Positions 2,724-63,906 of a DNA stretch of 64,000 nucleotides are shown one piece after another (the stretch's first letter is position 1; each line of letters begins with the position of its first letter). Source of the stretch: Alphaproteobacteria bacterium (lineage in GTDB: Bacteria > Pseudomonadota > Alphaproteobacteria > Rs-D84); the NCBI GenBank assembly GCA_015062525.1, contig SUUM01000001.1:62001-126000 (forward strand), in the 5' to 3' direction. The position numbers were made by a program, and so were the translations under genes. The notes under the pieces are model-generated. The model was not told where the DNA came from, did not search any database, and saw only the letters and a list, made by a program, of their open reading frames with translations.

Positions 2724-3182
2724 TTAGTTATTTTTGATTGTGCCACCGGCCTTGACAATCGCTTCTTCTGCCGCTTTGGACCATTTATCCGCAACAACAT
2801 TAACAGCTGTCTTGATTTCACCCTTGGCCAAAACTTTCAAGCCATCCAATCTGCGATTGATAACCTTTGCCGCCATCAAAGAATCAATTGTGATTTCCTT
2901 GCCTGCATCAATTTTACCTGCCGCGATAAACTTTTCGATATCGCCCAGGTTAATTGTCGCATATTCCTTGGCAAAAGGATTGTTAAAGCCAAATTTTGGG
3001 AAACGACGCAAAATTGGCATCTGACCACCCTGGAAAGTCGCCTGCTTGCGTGAACCACTACGAGCTTTCTGCCCCTTATGACCACGACCAGCTGTCTTAC
3101 CAGATCCAGACCCCATACCACGACCAACGCGGGTTGCGTTCTGACGTGCACCAAAATTATCCATCAATGCATTTAATTTCAT
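2724..3182 (-). CDS. rplO: 50S ribosomal protein L15
   Basis: The 152-residue product has the Gly/Lys-rich L15 N terminus (RVGRGMGSGSGKTAGRGHKGQKAR) and the FQGGQMPILRRFPKFGF motif at about residues 50-66. It binds 23S rRNA during large-subunit assembly. It follows rpmD by 77 bp, in the normal spc order rpsE-rpmD-rplO-secY. Confidence 0.96.
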   Translation of the reverse strand: MKLNALMDNFGARQNATRVGRGMGSGSGKTAGRGHKGQKARSGSRKQATFQGGQMPILRRFPKFGFNNPFAKEYATINLGDIEKFIAAGKIDAGKEITIDSLMAAKVINRRLDGLKVLAKGEIKTAVNVVADKWSKAAEEAIVKAGGTIKNN

Positions 3183-3259
3183 TTCTTTTACTCCTATAAC
3201 TACTATGTAGTTCTTTGTCGCACGTAAACAAGTCCTGTTTTCGTACTCGGTTTATCATT

Positions 3260-3436
3260 TTATTCAACTACTTCTACCAAGTGCGAAACCTTGGCAATCA
3301 TGCCACGTACAGATTCAGAATCTGTGATTTCCTTGGTCTTGCCGATACGTCCCAGGCCCAACGCTTTCACGATTTTGACCTGTGCTTCTGGACGACCGAT
3401 TGTACTTTTAACTTGTTTTACAACTATCTTAGCCAT
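3260..3436 (-). CDS. rpmD: 50S ribosomal protein L30
   Basis: This short 58-residue reading frame starts MAKIVVKQVKSTIGRPEAQ and ends KVSHLVEVVE. The pattern of an N-terminal beta strand, a GR...ALGLGRI segment and a terminal LVEVVE is typical of bacterial L30. It sits exactly between rpsE and rplO where L30 belongs. A GGAG-like ribosome-binding site precedes the ATG. Confidence 0.93.
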   Translation of the reverse strand: MAKIVVKQVKSTIGRPEAQVKIVKALGLGRIGKTKEITDSESVRGMIAKVSHLVEVVE

Positions 3437-3463
3437 AATTCAAACTCCTATCAATTGTCCAGA

Positions 3464-4018
3464 TTATTTTGCGTCATCCGCAGTTTCTAATTTTTTACCA
3501 TCACGACCGGCAATGATTTCCGCAACTGTCTTGCCACGACGTGCAGCAACAGTTTTTGGCGAATTCATCTTGTTAAACGCCAAGAACGCAGCACGGATCA
3601 TGTTGTTTGGATTATTAGAACCCTGAGATTTAACAACAACGTCCTGTACACCCAAGCATTCAAATACCGCACGCAACGCACCACCAGCGATGATACCAGT
3701 ACCTGGAACCGCACTACGTACAACCAGTTTGCTGGCGCCATATTTTGCTGTGCTATCATGATGCAATGTACGACCTTCCTTCAGCGGTACACGAATCATT
3801 TTTGCTTTTGCCGCCTTGGTCGCCTTTTGCACCGCAGCCTGCACTTCCAACGCTTTACCTTTACCGAAACCTACGCGACCAGCTTTGTCCCCGACAACAA
3901 CCAACGCCGAGAAAGACATATTGCGACCGCCCTTTACAGTCTTAGATACGCGGTTGATAGAAACTAATTTATCAACCAAGTTATCTGTCTGCAATTTTTT
4001 ATCATCAAAACGTGCCAT
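3464..4018 (-). CDS. rpsE: 30S ribosomal protein S5
   Basis: The protein is 184 residues. It carries the S5 double-stranded-RNA-binding N-terminal domain ([23 protein letters not shown], then [17 protein letters not shown]) and the C-terminal domain with [15 protein letters not shown] and the PNNMIRA turn. S5 helps form the mRNA entrance and affects accuracy. It lies 23 bp after rplR and 27 bp before rpmD, so it is co-transcribed with them. Confidence 0.97.
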
Positions 4019-27186: not shown

Positions 27187-28194
27187 TTATATGCTTGGGG
27201 CGCATACATCATCCAACAACGAATTAATATTTGCACGCAAGTCCTCTTTATCAGATGCCCAAACCAAGCGACGCATCAAAAACTTATGCACATCATCCAT
27301 TGTTAAATTCGGAATACCGGCGGCCGCCACCACACGCCGCCATGCGGTACGCGGATCAATCAGGTGCATTCCACCACGCCCTGGAAACACCCAATGCCCA
27401 TCCTGGGGGAAATCCTGCAACAATACAATTGCCCTATCTGACAACGGACGCGAATTCCACATATCATGATTAAAATCTAAATCTTCCCATGCCATAGCAA
27501 AGATTTTTGACCGTGGTGCAAAGCCATAAATCTGCATCAAAAACGCACCACGCAAAATAGTATCATCAACCTGATTAATCGCGCTTATCAAGCGTTGCAA
27601 CCCCGCCTTATTCAGCGGGCGCACGCGCCGATTTTGTTTTATTTTTTCCAACCCCGCAACCGGATTAGATTTCACATACCCCATTTCCAGCGCATAATTA
27701 AAAACACTTTGCAACAGTTCCTGCATACGTGCCGCGATCGCCACCCCACGAATATTTTGCACGCACGCGCACACATCATCAGATTTTATTTCTGATATTT
27801 TTTTATCAAACAAACAACCCAGGTGCCGATTAATTGCACGCACTAATTTCATATGCGAATCTTCACCACGACGCACCTTGTTGGCCAGATATAAATCCAA
27901 AAATTGTTTGAATGAAATTTTTTTTCTGCGCACAGGCGGTTTTTTTGATGCATTTTCCAGAATATGTGGCACCGCGCTGCGTGCATCTTCTATATCAACA
28001 TCGGGATATTTACCAATTAAAATCCGCTTGTCCTTGCCACGCACACGTTTGCGCACAAAAAACGTTTTCACCCCACGACTTGTGATATACATACGCAGTC
28101 TTGGTTCTGAAATATCCTGGACAACATCAAAACCCGTGCTTGGTGCCGGCAAGTTATCCAAAATATACGTATTAAAATAAAACTGGTGTGCCAT
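27187..28194 (-). CDS. tyrosine-recombinase-like protein lacking catalytic residues
   Basis: The 335-residue product has the layout of a P4-type phage integrase: an N-terminal arm-binding domain (SRGVKTFFVRKRVRGKDKRILIGKYPDVDIEDAR, about residues 34-67), a core-binding domain and a C-terminal catalytic fold (GAFLMQIYGFAPRSKIFAMAWEDLDF). The active site is degraded: the TGxRxxE box reads GFAPRSKI, the HxLR box reads DDVHKFLMRR, and no Tyr follows it. It is unlikely to cut DNA, yet the frame is intact, so it may persist as a DNA-binding protein. No flanking att sites were found. Confidence 0.82.
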   Translation of the reverse strand: MAHQFYFNTYILDNLPAPSTGFDVVQDISEPRLRMYITSRGVKTFFVRKRVRGKDKRILIGKYPDVDIEDARSAVPHILENASKKPPVRRKKISFKQFLDLYLANKVRRGEDSHMKLVRAINRHLGCLFDKKISEIKSDDVCACVQNIRGVAIAARMQELLQSVFNYALEMGYVKSNPVAGLEKIKQNRRVRPLNKAGLQRLISAINQVDDTILRGAFLMQIYGFAPRSKIFAMAWEDLDFNHDMWNSRPLSDRAIVLLQDFPQDGHWVFPGRGGMHLIDPRTAWRRVVAAAGIPNLTMDDVHKFLMRRLVWASDKEDLRANINSLLDDVCAPSI

Positions 28195-28212: not shown

Positions 28213-28623
28213 TTATCTTACATTTGCAAACTTATTTGACCAATACTGCGAACAAAGCCTTTCATACTCATTGAATTTTTGCCTATTATCACAATATATA
28301 TTATTTTCTTTACGCATCATACACCAATCATTTTGACATTTTTGCTCATTACCTTTTGGTCCAAAATACAAACAACGCCTAGCAGAAAAATGACAAATAT
28401 CTTCAACAAACATTTCCATATTATCAGTCAACTGCTTACATTTAACACACGCACTACCACCCCTGATATCTTCACCTTTGTCATAATACTTTATTAAGCC
28501 AACGCCCGATTGAACCATATCTTTTTCTGCCTGATATAATGCTTTTTTCAATTTTATATACTCGCGCCAATCAACAACCAACTGAGCTATCGGTGTTTTT
28601 TTTACGTAATTAAACCATTCCAT
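28213..28623 (-). CDS. Cys-rich hypothetical protein
   Basis: The start at 28623 (MEWFNYVKKTPI) follows AAAGGA. The 136-residue product has eleven Cys, most in the second half (ACVKCKQL, DICHFSARRCLYF, KCQNDWCMM, YCDN, LCSQ), suggesting a metal-bound or disulfide-rich fold, though there is no signal peptide. I do not recognise the family. It sits 17 bp behind lepA and 18 bp before the recombinase-like gene, so all three may be co-transcribed. A smaller Cys-rich gene at 43839 has a similar look but no clear alignment. Confidence 0.6.
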   Translation of the reverse strand: MEWFNYVKKTPIAQLVVDWREYIKLKKALYQAEKDMVQSGVGLIKYYDKGEDIRGGSACVKCKQLTDNMEMFVEDICHFSARRCLYFGPKGNEQKCQNDWCMMRKENNIYCDNRQKFNEYERLCSQYWSNKFANVR

Positions 28624-28639
28624 AACCAATCCTTTTATT

Positions 28640-30433: not shown

Positions 30434-30440
30434 GTTATTA

Positions 30441-30480
30441 CCAGTGGTTAGTGATTAGTGCAAGTGTTCAGTGAATGAAT
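30441..30480 (-). repeat. 7-nt-period array at the 3' side of the four-helix-bundle gene
   Basis: Plus-strand units AGTGGTT, AGTGATT, AGTGCA, AGTGTTC, AGTGAAT recur every seven bases (one unit is a base short). The array runs into the coding region and encodes the last residues (HSLNTCTNH) and the stop. It is inverted relative to the array at 30822. Confidence 0.8.
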
Positions 30481-30822
30481 CAATCCAGATAACATCCGCG
30501 ACACTTCCGCTATATCTTTAAGTATTTTTTCTGCCTTGTTTTTTTCTACAAACCCCAAAGCAAACGCTAAATCTATCTGCGTTTCCAGCTCTGCGGCAGA
30601 CCCTTTTGCCACATATACAAAACGCACATATTCCTTGGTTGTTCCCCGCGCGGCCCCTTCTGCCAAATTGGAACAAATTGACACAGCAGCCCTGCGCATT
30701 TGTGAAACCAACCCAAACTGCTCATTCTGTGGAAAGCAAGCCGTCGCCTTATATACATCAACGGCCAGATTAAACCCGCATTTATATACTGTTAAATCCT
30801 TAACCGATTTCATGTATTCCAT
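30448..30822 (-). CDS. four-helix-bundle protein (S23 / 23S rRNA intervening-sequence type)
   Basis: The 124-residue product ([74 protein letters not shown]) matches the S23/IVP family, which is found inside 23S rRNA intervening sequences and as scattered single genes; Avd of diversity-generating retroelements has the same fold. The ATG at 30822 is itself part of a heptamer (AGTGATGG). The gene lies between lepA and rbfA, breaks no gene, and is framed by inverted heptamer arrays, so it behaves like a small mobile unit. Its biochemical role is unknown. Confidence 0.92.
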
Positions 30823-30856
30823 CACTAGCCACTAACAACTTACACTAACCACTAAA
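30822..30856 (-). repeat. 7-nt-period array at the 5' side of the four-helix-bundle gene
   Basis: On the minus strand the array reads TTAGTGG, TTAGTGT, AAGTTGT, TAGTGGC, TAGTGAT, then the gene's ATG. It is the inverted partner of 30441-30480. Confidence 0.8.
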
Positions 30857-32469: not shown

Positions 32470-32505
32470 TTAACTGCACTCTGCACTCTGAACTCTGAAC
32501 ACTAA
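32470..32505 (-). repeat. 7-nt-period array (GCACTCT type)
   Basis: GCACTCT, GCACTCT, GAACTCT, GAACACT follow one another exactly, directly before the terminator at 32506. It has its own heptamer consensus, different from the AGTGGTT arrays, but the same position next to a terminator. Confidence 0.75.
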
Positions 32506-37206: not shown

Positions 37207-39327
37207 TTAATTTAACGACATTGTTGTACTGGGCACCACCGCATCCAGCGTTAAATCCAACGGTTTAAAATCCCCACCAATAATTTCAATTGGCGCATAA
37301 CTGACGTTTCCGGCATTATCAAAATTAACCACATAACTGCCCTGAGTCGCCGCCGAACGCAACACACCATCCAAATCAAAATTTTCCAATGTTTCACTAA
37401 TGGCATTTAACTCATCGGTAACCGCCTTTTGCGTCATGGCACCGTCTTCGCTTTCCCCCGTTGTACCATATAATTTAGTCACACCTGCGGTTTGTGCATT
37501 ACCCAAATCATATGTTGTACCCGTCGCGCTGATTACGCCACCTTCAATGGTGATGTTTTCACCCGCTTCATACGTTGTACCCGTCGCGCTGATTACATTA
37601 TTTTCAATTTTAATATTTTCACCCGCCGTATATGTCGTATCTGTATCCGTCGCACTGATTACGCCATTTTCAATCGTAACATTGTCACCGGCTGAATACG
37701 TGGCACTGATTTCACCATTTTCAATTGCGATATTGTCACCAGCTGTATACGTTGTATCCGTCGCACTGATTACATTATTTTCAATTTTAATATTTTCACC
37801 CGCCGTATATGTCGTATCTGTATCCGTCGCGCTGATTACACCATTTTCAATTGTAACATTGTCACCGGCTGAATACGTCGTATCCGTCGCACTGATTACA
37901 CCATTTTCAATTGCGATATTGTCACCCGCCGTATATGTCGTATCTGTATCCGTCGCACTAATTACGCCATTTTCAATTGTAACATTGTCACCGGCTGTAT
38001 ACGTCGTATCCGTCGCACTGATTACGCCGCCTTCGGAAATACTAACATTTTCACCCGCCGTGTAATCTTTTATCATATCCTTGGTCGCAAACTTGGCGTC
38101 TGCCTCGGCCTTGGTATAATAATTTGTTAATTCAGCCTGACCTGCGTTAATCCTATCAATCGCATCCTGCAATTCAGATTTTGCATCCGCCAATTCCTGT
38201 TTTGTCGCCAGACCTTCAATCGCCACATCAATCTGGTTTTCAACATCACTTGATGTAACAAAGCCCTCGATTGCATTCTCTACAGCTTCCAATCTTGCCT
38301 GCAAATCCGTAATTGCTTGGCCCATTGCTGAATCCGCACCCTGCAAAGCCACAATTGCTTCGTTCAAGCCCGCAATCGCCGCATCAACATAGGCCTTATT
38401 AACATCCGGCTGTTCAATTGCCGCAATCGCATTCTGCAACGCCACATCCGCAGCTTCCAGATTTGACTTAATGGCATCCACATATTCCTTGTTAACCAGC
38501 CCTTCGGTCGATGGGGTTGAATTTTTCAACTCATTAATCGCCGCCTGCAAGCCCGCATCCACCGCTTTTAATTCTTCAACCTTGGCATTCAAATCATCGG
38601 CAGTAATCATACCACCCTGCAAAGCCTCAATCGCCGCATTCATGGACACATCAGCCGATTCCAACGCATCCACCGCGCTTTGCAATTCTGACAAATCAGC
38701 AGATGTCAACAAACCATCTAAATCAGATTTTTTTGCATACTCGGACAAATCCGGAATAACAATCTCGTTAATTCTATCCTCTAAATCGCTCAGGCTTTCT
38801 TCGGACGCAAAATAATCATTCAAATCAATTTCTTCGGGCACACCATCCTGTACAATGGTCAAAATCCCATTTTCAAATTCAACTGTCGGATACTCGCCAG
38901 TCAATGAAGCAATTTCTTCCTTTAACCCTTCTACATCAACAACCAAATCATCCACAGTTTTTTTCAGGTCACTTATACTCGACTGTCCAGGATTAATAGT
39001 ACCAGACGAAGACCCCGCACCACCCGGCAGCGCAACACCACCCAGATACTTACCAATTGACAAACGTGGCGCCGCAGCAGTACGCGTAGATGACACTTTC
39101 GACGACGCTGTCGATTTAGCAGCGGTCGTACGCAACGAGCCCGCACGCACAGACCCAACCGTTCCGGTCGTTGGCTTTGCCCCGGCCGTCGCCGCACTAG
39201 AAGCACTAGAATAGGTCCCTGCCCCACCCAGCGAACGCACCGCAGACGCACCGAATGATGGCAACGCAATCACCGTGCCCAACACACAAATTATTGATAA
39301 TGTTGAAATTTTTAATTCTGTTTTCAT
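37207..39327 (-). CDS. secreted coiled-coil and beta-repeat fibre protein, cluster member 5
   Basis: The 706-residue product has a signal sequence (MKTELKISTLSIICVLGTVIALPSFGA), an Ala/Ser/Thr-rich stretch, a long coiled-coil region (about residues 115-420, with NKEYVDAIKSNL and NKAYVDAAIAGL) and about ten short repeats of the form TYTAGDNVTIENGVISATD (about residues 423-625), then a C-terminal domain starting YDLGNAQTAGVTKLYG. The architecture is like a phage tail fibre or trimeric adhesin stalk, but there is no YadA-type anchor. It lacks the Cys-pair block. No terminator was found behind it. Confidence 0.72.
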   Translation of the reverse strand: MKTELKISTLSIICVLGTVIALPSFGASAVRSLGGAGTYSSASSAATAGAKPTTGTVGSVRAGSLRTTAAKSTASSKVSSTRTAAAPRLSIGKYLGGVALPGGAGSSSGTINPGQSSISDLKKTVDDLVVDVEGLKEEIASLTGEYPTVEFENGILTIVQDGVPEEIDLNDYFASEESLSDLEDRINEIVIPDLSEYAKKSDLDGLLTSADLSELQSAVDALESADVSMNAAIEALQGGMITADDLNAKVEELKAVDAGLQAAINELKNSTPSTEGLVNKEYVDAIKSNLEAADVALQNAIAAIEQPDVNKAYVDAAIAGLNEAIVALQGADSAMGQAITDLQARLEAVENAIEGFVTSSDVENQIDVAIEGLATKQELADAKSELQDAIDRINAGQAELTNYYTKAEADAKFATKDMIKDYTAGENVSISEGGVISATDTTYTAGDNVTIENGVISATDTDTTYTAGDNIAIENGVISATDTTYSAGDNVTIENGVISATDTDTTYTAGENIKIENNVISATDTTYTAGDNIAIENGEISATYSAGDNVTIENGVISATDTDTTYTAGENIKIENNVISATGTTYEAGENITIEGGVISATGTTYDLGNAQTAGVTKLYGTTGESEDGAMTQKAVTDELNAISETLENFDLDGVLRSAATQGSYVVNFDNAGNVSYAPIEIIGGDFKPLDLTLDAVVPSTTMSLN
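37491..38066 (-). repeat. in-gene tandem DNA repeats encoding the beta repeats
   Basis: Units of 54-66 bp with the recurring blocks GCACTGATTAC and CCATTTTCAAT(T) alternate through 37491-38066. Near-identical neighbours make copy-number change by slippage or recombination likely. Confidence 0.8.
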
Positions 39328-48492: not shown

Positions 48493-48594
48493 TTAGTGAT
48501 AAGTGGTCAGTGTAAGTGGTAAGTGATGGCACTATAATGTGCGGCATTCGCCGCACACATCCACTAACCACTAGACACTTGCACTAACCACTAA
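48493..48594. repeat. empty inverted 7-nt-period repeat unit with a central hairpin
   Basis: Left array 48493-48529 (AGTGATA, AGTGGTC, AGTGTA, AGTGGTA, AGTGATG) and right array 48561-48594 (CACTAAC, CACTAGA, CACTTG, CACTAAC, CACTAA) are inverted copies. Between them is only TGTGCGGC-ATTC-GCCGCACA (48538-48557). The unit has the same frame as the four-helix-bundle locus at 30441-30856, without the gene. Confidence 0.85.
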
Positions 48595-48619
48595 AAAATC
48601 CCCGTTCCCGGGGATTTTT
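48595..48619 (-). terminator. intrinsic terminator after dnaN
   Basis: AAATCCCCGGGAACGGGGATTTTTT on the minus strand, directly joined to the heptamer array. Confidence 0.85.
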
Positions 48620-48625
48620 CATTTC

Positions 48626-49744
48626 CTACATGCGCATTGGCATTAACACATACAACGCATCCGTATCTTTGTCCACGGAATTGATTTTCGTAGGCGCTAA
48701 TGGGTCCTGCATTTCCATCTGGAATTTTTCGCCTTCGACCTGACCGGCAACATCCAGCAAGAATTTCACATTAAACACAACCGTGAATGATGCATCACCA
48801 TTGTATTCAATATCTAATTCCTGGGTTGCGGTACCGGCATCTGGACTGGACGCATTGATAACCAACTTATTCATGCTGAATGTCAACTGAACAGATTTTG
48901 TTTTATCAACACTTGCAACCGAAACCAAGTCAACCGCATTAATAAACTGCTTTCTGTCCAAAATTGCGATTTTGTCATTTCCCTTTGGAATTACAACGCG
49001 ATAATTTGGATATTGCGCATCAACCAGTTTGCTGGTTAATGTTGCAGAACCAACCGTAAAGCGCGCCTTGGTATCAGACAATTCAACCAAAACATCATCA
49101 ACATTGGCGTCTTCCAGCAACTTAGATAATTCACCAATTACACGACGTGGCAAAATAACCGACGGCATTTCCGCGCTGCCCGCGGGGGCCGGCATTGCAC
49201 ACAACGCCATACGTTGCGCGTCCGTTGCAACGGCGGTTAATTTCTTTTCATCGCCTTCGTCTGCAATATGGAAATAGATACCCCCCAAATGATAACGAAC
49301 ATCATCTGTTGGAATTGCAAATTTAGTTTGATTAATCAGATGTGCTAAATCACCCGTTGTCATCTGGAATTTTGTTGTCAGATTGCTGCCCGCCATGGCT
49401 GGGAAATTTTCCGCCGGCAATGTCGGCAAACGGAACACCGCACGACCACTGGACACAACCAGCTGGTCGCCAGACTGTTTGAATGAAATTTCCGCATCAT
49501 CTGGCAACTTGCGCACAATATCATACAACATTTGAACTGGAACGGTTATCTTGCCCCCCAGTGTAATATCGGCGGCAACATGTTCAACCAATTCTAAATC
49601 CACATTTGTCGCAGACAGAATTAAATCATCTGCGGCTTCGATCTTAACATTCATCAAAATCGGCAATGTTGCGCGCTTTTCCACAATCGACTGCATATGC
49701 CCCAGCGCACGTATCAAAACCTGACGAAACACTGAAAATTCCAT
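48626..49744 (-). CDS. dnaN: DNA polymerase III sliding clamp (beta subunit)
   Basis: The 372-residue product has the three clamp domains, starting MEFSVFRQVLIRALGHMQSIVEKRATLPILMNV, with GIYFHIAD.. and LTAVATDAQRMA in the middle and the C-terminal VLMPMRM. It makes the replisome processive. dnaA and recF are not beside it; it stands between ppa and the diadenylate cyclase, separated from the latter by three palindromic elements. Confidence 0.95.
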   Translation of the reverse strand: MEFSVFRQVLIRALGHMQSIVEKRATLPILMNVKIEAADDLILSATNVDLELVEHVAADITLGGKITVPVQMLYDIVRKLPDDAEISFKQSGDQLVVSSGRAVFRLPTLPAENFPAMAGSNLTTKFQMTTGDLAHLINQTKFAIPTDDVRYHLGGIYFHIADEGDEKKLTAVATDAQRMALCAMPAPAGSAEMPSVILPRRVIGELSKLLEDANVDDVLVELSDTKARFTVGSATLTSKLVDAQYPNYRVVIPKGNDKIAILDRKQFINAVDLVSVASVDKTKSVQLTFSMNKLVINASSPDAGTATQELDIEYNGDASFTVVFNVKFLLDVAGQVEGEKFQMEMQDPLAPTKINSVDKDTDALYVLMPMRM

Positions 49745-63518: not shown

Positions 63519-63552
63519 TATCTGCGTTTCCAATTCACAGAATCCATAATTA

Positions 63553-63658
63553 TATATAGAATGATTTAGATAAAATCAAATCGGGCATCGTAGTGTACAA
63601 ACGCTACATAAGATGCCTGCCCTGTCCATAGATACGCCATAGATTTTTATAAAATAAA
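63553..63658 (+). repeat. palindromic element, copy 7 (mosaic: type A left, type B right)
   Basis: The left half is type A (AGAATGATTTAGAT, arm CAAATCGGGCAT) and the right half is type B (arm ATGCCTGCCCTGTCC, then ATAGATACGCCAT). The arms pair only over GGCAT/ATGCC. The right arm's CTGTCC matches GGACAG in the left arm of copy 8, so recombination between adjacent copies is likely. Confidence 0.8.
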
Positions 63659-63718
63659 AGATAATGGTATAGATATGGACAGTGCCGTCCCCGTAGCGTA
63701 CAAACTCCTTGCCAGGCT
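63650..63718 (+). repeat. palindromic element, copy 8 (truncated type B)
   Basis: Left end AAAATAAAAGATAATGGTAT and left arm GGACAGTGCCGTCCCC, then GTAGCGTACAAA; after this the sequence leaves the family (CTCCTTGCCAGG). Confidence 0.75.
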
Positions 63719-63720
63719 TA

Positions 63721-63800
63721 AATTAAATAGAATGATTTAGATAAAAGCAAATCGGGCATCGTAGTGTACAAACGCTACATGAGATGCCATCCCCATAACC
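63721..63800 (+). repeat. palindromic element, copy 9 (type A left half, right end lost)
   Basis: AAATAGAATGATTTAGAT, arm CAAATCGGGCAT, intact core GTAGTGT-ACAA-ACGCTAC with ATGAG, then only ATGCC of the right arm before unrelated sequence. Confidence 0.8.
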
Positions 63801-63906
63801 TAAATTAAAGATGACGGTATAGATAAACGAATTGTGGGTGTCGTAGTGTACAAACGCTACATGAGACACCCACAATTCGCTTTAGATATGCCGTAAGATT
63901 TAATTT
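63801..63906 (+). repeat. palindromic element, copy 10 (intact type B)
   Basis: Left AAATTAAAGATGACGGTAT pairs with right ATATGCCGTAAGATTTAATTT; relative to copies 2 and 5 a T:A pair in the terminal stem is C:G on both sides. Arm ACGAATTGTGGGTGT/ACACCCACAATTCG is perfect. The right end contains the stop codon of the secretin gene (63900-63902). Confidence 0.9.

Follow-up and report, generated by a model that had tools for sequence, protein, structure and literature searches.

The locus analysed here raises the question of what an S23 gene is doing in an ordinary spacer between rbfA and lepA, and why it is enclosed by inverted arrays of a short repeat. The S23 open reading frame of 23S intervening sequences (IVSs) was first described in the 1990s, and we know of no function assigned to it. 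The gene lies in a stretch of 64,000 nucleotides of an Alphaproteobacteria bacterium (the window), and the cassette that it forms with its arrays comprises, together with the adjoining leader, the following features:

30448 to 30813, minus strand: S23 / 23S_rRNA_IVP four-helix-bundle gene, 121 aa from the ATG at 30811-30813 (PF05635, TIGR02436, AF2, 2gsc)
30442 to 30473, plus strand: array at the S23 3' end (AGTGGTTAGTGATTAGTGCAAGTGTTCAGTG), which codes for the last residues and the stop
30823 to 30855, minus strand: array at the S23 5' end (TTAGTGGTTAGTGTAAGTTGTTAGTGGCTAGTG read on the minus strand), an inverted copy of the other arm
30434 to 30441, minus strand: short lepA leader remnant that separates the cassette from the lepA ATG, as judged against the empty leaders of congeners

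A preliminary description of this DNA had proposed a four-helix-bundle gene, and profile and structure searches bear out this identification. The encoded protein scored above the cut-off of both PF05635 (E 2.5e-37; 127.8 bits, cut-off 33.8) and TIGR02436 (3e-35; 120.7 bits, cut-off 24) in profile searches. Its AF2 monomer (pLDDT 95) consists of four helices at residues 8-24, 35-54, 59-85 and 91-119, and the fold matches of this model are headed by 2gsc (TM 0.86-0.96), include 2rld and continue with Avd. By model and 2gsc match, the protein has the four-helix bundle of the S23 family. 2gsc is XCC0516 of Xanthomonas campestris, a homopentamer according to Lin 2006 as cited in PMC4990558. The gene ends with the stop at 30448-30450 and has, besides its start at 30811-30813, alternative starts at ATG 30820-30822 and GTG 30823-30825. 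The order rbfA, S23, lepA, with all three genes on the minus strand, places the cassette in an ordinary spacer, as had been described, and not inside a 23S rRNA gene. No transposase was detected in the cassette with Pfam and NCBIfam profiles, the PF05635 gene being the only one that it holds. No relative of the protein was found in phages, and 41 plasmid records, mostly cyanobacterial, contain one.

The arrays do reach into the coding ends. The left array encodes the LNTCTNH-stop terminus of S23, and the right array (AGTGATGG) overlaps the alternative start codons. The best ungapped inverted match between the arms (30448-30473 against 30830-30855) agrees at 21 of 26 positions, a score equalled or exceeded at 2 of 3000 geometry-matched random places in the window. 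The cassette is a single ORF between inverted terminal repeats, as in 23S IVSs. While the inverted arrays of the preliminary description are present, their period is not a uniform 7 nt but mixes spacings of 7 and 6 (TTAGTGG TTAGTG TAAGTGG TTAGTG), and for this reason tandem-repeat programs detect them only partly.

Judged against the empty leaders of congeners, the cassette sits within the lepA 5' leader. Among the congeners whose leader was read, only G031 shares it with the window genome, and the other lepA leaders are short and carry no insertion. Most congeners examined have an empty site, and the position of S23 upstream of lepA is thus not fixed among congeners. From this presence and absence we infer that the cassette was inserted at lepA; the empty leaders are too diverged to define a target-site duplication. 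The insertion is old enough to be common to two species. The window and G031 copies of S23 differ by a dN of 0.09 and a dS of 0.98, and the resulting dN/dS of 0.09 indicates that the protein is under purifying selection; values of 0.03-0.12 were obtained for most close S23 pairs. An S23 gene was found in 6 of 34 further congeners, five of the six lying at other loci with arrays of AAAGT(T/A/G)C, ACAGA(G/T)A or CTCGTTA and not of TTAGTGG. Array heptamers and sites both differ between congeners. The window also holds, some 0.4 kb past the end of lepA, a tyrosine-recombinase-like gene (27187-28194, minus strand; Arm-DNA-bind_3 and Phage_int_M), possibly an integrase remnant, which is preceded by a 138-aa ORF (28213-28629) with no Pfam match.

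A survey of S23 loci across bacteria extended the association between gene and arrays. A first scan, with three S23 proteins as queries, yielded 80 loci, spread over more than 20 phyla and candidate phyla, and inverted 7-nt arrays were present at the ends of nearly all of them, with a different heptamer each time. Because these loci had been chosen by similarity to the window protein, the test was redone on evenly drawn genomes with the Pfam profile alone. S23 was detected in 15 of 289 genomes of the Alphaproteobacteria sample, where arrays flank 14 of 16 further S23 genes and the two exceptions are weak matches, and in 56 of 397 genomes of the phylum sample, where arrays flank most strong matches; the sampled genomes include metagenome-assembled ones, and some of the S23 absences may be gaps. 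The collection finally comprised 226 loci from 147 genomes, 221 of them with both flanks. An array or inverted pair stands at the gene ends of 96% of these 221 loci, and several of the approximately 4% without arrays are weak PF05635 matches; these and the following percentages are descriptive only, because loci of close kinship do not provide independent data. At 88% of the 221 loci one side, and at 72% both sides, reached a lag-7 self-match of 13/21 or more. A lag-7 self-match of at least 15/21 was found in 61.7% of 447 S23 flanks as against 0.7% of shuffles; in the same flanks the share at lag 14 was 48.8%, and all other lags from 4 to 19 gave 0.2-6%. Among the first 73 loci, 53-62% have the lag-7 period, compared with 2.8% of the 2506 segments taken from the same DNA as controls. 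The inverted-arm score was at least 16 at 72% of the 221 loci and at 1.75% when arms were paired across loci. The shuffles, the other lags and the control segments exclude chance repeats as the cause. The compact cassette with its own ends that had been proposed for the window is thus upheld and proves wider than supposed, since strong S23 genes elsewhere, including copies within 23S rRNA, carry arrays too. Clostridial (Ruminococcus) loci L102-L104, around 2850-3620, have inverted flanking repeats with units of about 17-18 and 26 nt, not heptamers.

Each cassette has a heptamer of its own. Heptamer similarity is 0.72 between the two arms of one gene. It falls to 0.453 when an arm is compared with the opposite arm of a second S23 gene from the same genome, and is 0.455 when the second gene comes from another genome. 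An acidobacterial genome with 17 S23 matches has array types that include TAGGGTG, GAGGTTA, GAAGTCT and GGATGAG. A repeat-rich genome or a one-heptamer-per-host effect is ruled out, since the heptamer differs between S23 genes that share a genome. Heptamer and protein diverge together. Heptamer profiles match in 100% of pairs above 80% protein identity, 71% at 70-80%, 47% at 60-70%, 13% at 50-60% and 2-6% below 50% (Mantel test of heptamer against S23 protein, 0 of 2000 permutations). This correlation has the pattern that would be expected if a protein and the sequence it recognises changed in concert, although shared descent alone could yield it. Among protein columns considered as setting the heptamer, only that of window Y62 passed the permutation limit, with A54 next, and this signal is too weak for a claim.

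Arrays of the window type are also dispersed without the gene. The 0.99-Mb assembly contains one S23 gene, and TTAGTGRTTAGTG, with at most one mismatch, has 103 matches in it versus 6 for the reversed pattern. By our own count, TTAGTGG-type arrays occupy about 50 separate places of the genome, many of which hold an inverted pair of roughly 100 bp with no gene in it. Solo elements of type A consist of an inverted array pair of about 95-102 bp around a conserved core (ATGGCACTATAATGTGCGGCATTCGCCGCACACATCC) and hold no gene, while those of type B are single arrays beside a terminator. One of each lies in the window:

48494 to 48594, no strand assigned: type A solo element, inverted arrays round a core of about 35 bp that recurs at several other places of the genome
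63458 to 63492, minus strand: type B solo single array with a TTAGTGG-type heptamer, adjoining a terminator

The solo elements are short and gene-less, have terminal inverted repeats and occur in many copies, as is characteristic of MITEs. Their ends are the same as those of the S23 cassette, which would be the putatively autonomous member. In 14 aligned congeners the place orthologous to 48494-48594 showed no array element, and a target-site duplication is not readable there because the spacers are too diverged. Congeners without an S23 gene contain solo arrays as well, of TTAGTGG in G007, G008, G030 and G033 and of AAAGTTC in G012 and G020. Arrays therefore persist, or move, without S23, and those of the S23-less congeners may be remnants left after loss of the gene. 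Of 58 congeners, 4 contain ACAGA(T/G)A arrays, and these include the two genomes that carry the cognate S23. Two identical S23 copies on one chromosome (L056 and L057) were considered as a case of recent transposition; the 6354 bases retrieved for each are the same throughout, which makes the pair uninformative.

Other repeats were noted in the window. A short array (CTGCACT CTGCACT CTGAACT CTGAACA) at 32474-32500, directly before a terminator, resembles the AGTGCAG/AGTTCAG arrays of another S23 type in congeners, and two heptamer types may therefore occur in the genome. Repeated blocks with 'cgtagtgtacaaacgctacatgagat' extend across a few hundred bases at 63540-63860; similar text was found in congeners beside the orthologue of window 48600-49400, and the blocks probably represent another dispersed repeat family. 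Tandem repeats of about 60 and 177 bp at 37510-38025 are possibly repetitive coding sequence.

Two further groups of loci connect the cassettes to elements that have been described before. Three S23 genes lie inside 23S rRNA (L157 and L159 by Rfam, L326 by conserved motifs) and have heptamer arrays of the same kind, and we take the rRNA around them to be the helix-45 region. The IVS of Coxiella lies in the helix-45 region (PMC4990558). In three genomes that appear to be Xanthomonad-like, an S23 gene is located between apparent accB and accC with GGGA(A/T)TC arrays on its flanks. Array matches to GGGA(A/T)TC number 290, 225 and 19 in these genomes, 0 for the reversed control, and 0 to 1 in six other genomes. 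One of these accB-accC-type S23 proteins shares 60% identity with XCC0516 of X. campestris. GGGAATC is the heptamer published for Xanthomonas, and X. campestris has 70 convergently oriented pairs of it (PMC4692102). One array (G580:C1:326879-327564) has nearly 100 perfect GGGAATC units, compared with the usual 4-5.

Taken as a whole, the pattern suggests a type of selfish cassette that has not been described before. In our preferred reading, to which we assign a probability of roughly 55%, S23 and its inverted arrays are one genetic element, in which S23 recognises its own heptamer and which spreads via host functions with S23 binding the ends. Median array length is 31 nt upstream and 32 nt downstream, mostly 4-5 repeats. 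A pentameric S23 ring would recognise 4-5 repeats (about 31 nt) of its heptamer at each end as DNA, with one subunit per heptamer, 4x7+3 = 31 nt allowing five contacts, and it would hold the two cassette ends together in a synapsis. Neither a transposase nor a nuclease is recognisable in S23, and DNA movement would therefore depend on the host; replication or repair by the host would propagate the cassette and its gene-less derivatives, with S23 as the end-binding factor and the gene-less, MITE-like copies served in trans. In codirectional spacers S23 is in sense orientation in 133 cases versus 18 (133/151), a bias that suggests read-through expression or an RNA step. S23 is probably expressed by read-through from the host gene ahead, because the cassette mostly lies in sense orientation behind such a gene. 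The classical S23 IVS of 23S rRNA would be a cassette that landed in a tolerated rRNA helix. A broader proposal is more tentative, and we rate it somewhat short of an even chance: S23/IVP proteins may be the sequence-specific recognition proteins of widespread selfish cassettes without a transposase, most bacterial heptanucleotide repeats their gene-less offspring, and the S23-coding 23S IVS one landing site. One pattern joins two questions, the function of S23 and the excess of heptanucleotide repeats, and scattered heptamers could be explained by it. Since a candidate binding sequence can be read off beside each S23 gene, both questions are directly testable, and a family of small proteins with many readable heptamer specificities would be a natural protein-repeat code.

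An element whose arms are needed as RNA is an alternative that we regard as rather unlikely. In one form, a long stem would be cut by RNase III, as in 23S IVSs, and the insertion rendered harmless in the transcript. The terminal stem of the Coxiella IVS, 28 bp long and cut by RNase III (PMC4990558), agrees with this form, as do the three S23 genes within 23S rRNA and the RNA of the window cassette, which folds well (z -4). In a TRAP-like form, the S23 ring would wrap the array of its own mRNA as an autoregulator, and the pentamer and the array of about 31 nt (4x7+3, five contacts spaced 7 nt) would fit this; the homologue Avd works in a ribonucleoprotein, and the 133:18 orientation bias is also as expected for a function in RNA. 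The arms match at 85% in register versus 68% when slid by one unit and therefore resemble each other beyond the unit consensus, as an RNA stem would also give. However, mismatches between the arms comprise 171 G.U and 200 A.C, and because G.U is not favoured over A.C, unlike in conserved RNA stems, RNA pairing does not appear to be the conserved feature. An autoregulator, moreover, needs one arm and no inverted second arm.

The preferred selfish cassette has also to be weighed against a host regulatory network, in which a domesticated S23 would regulate by binding DNA or RNA and the arrays would be its operators, spread by regulatory selection. Strong purifying selection on S23 suits such a role, as does the position of solo arrays in spacers and near terminators, and the TAACTGA repeats of Maribeggiatoa lie directly upstream of start codons (PMC4679880). 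We nevertheless think it improbable, given the patchy presence of S23 (15/289 alphaproteobacterial genomes), the many S23 genes with different heptamers that one genome can hold, and the differences in array heptamers and sites between congeners. That heptamers simply expand easily, with S23 cassettes sitting in or carrying them unrecognised, accommodates the copy number of 3 to more than 12 and the over-representation of heptameric repeats in many genomes, for which polymerase slippage has been proposed (PMC4679880, PMC4692102), but slippage alone gives no same-heptamer inverted ends, per-gene heptamers or narrow array length and would require S23 insertions that began without arrays and acquired unrelated repeats at either end afterwards, which makes it highly improbable.

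Several known systems share part of this design. Avd, the pentameric DGR accessory protein (PDB 4dwl, 8ub7), has the same fold as the window protein, but the two are 14% identical, the window protein scores under the cut-off of the bAvd profile (23.8 bits, cut-off 40) and of the NCBIfam Avd profile (31 bits, cut-off 80), and no reverse transcriptase is present among the S23 neighbours rbfA and lepA. TRAP is a ring protein that binds regularly spaced triplets in single-stranded RNA. It is comparable in its ring form, in which the number of subunits could correspond to repeats at regular spacing, and differs in its unrelated fold, its single-stranded RNA target, the lack of an inverted second array and in not being a cassette. 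In REP/BIME and RAYT systems, one gene is flanked by inverted short repeats of which the genome holds many gene-less copies. RAYT (PMC2817692), however, is a tyrosine transposase, which the window cassette with its single PF05635 gene does not encode; S23 lacks a transposase motif, and the repeats around it are arrays of heptamers. Our search of the open-access literature (subscription journals being outside its scope) found no prior report linking S23 to heptamer arrays. Bacterial heptanucleotide repeats, such as GGGAATC in Xanthomonas and GGGGA(T/C)T in Nostoc (PMC4692102), TAACTGA in Maribeggiatoa (PMC4679880) and the three tandem heptanucleotides of Calothrix as cited there, resemble the solo arrays in being 7-nt tandem units scattered in spacers, and the convergent pairs of X. 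campestris resemble the solo pairs. PMC4692102 and PMC4679880 make no mention of S23 or a four-helix-bundle gene and propose slippage, G-quadruplexes or translation control. The 23S IVSs of Coxiella, Leptospira and Brucella (PMC4990558) have a protein of the same family and, like the S23 cassette, hold a single ORF between terminal inverted repeats and are sporadically distributed; they have long been suspected to be mobile. They were described inside 23S rRNA and, in PMC4990558, not as heptamer arrays, whereas the present cassettes occupy ordinary spacers, have element-specific heptamers and are accompanied by gene-less derivatives.
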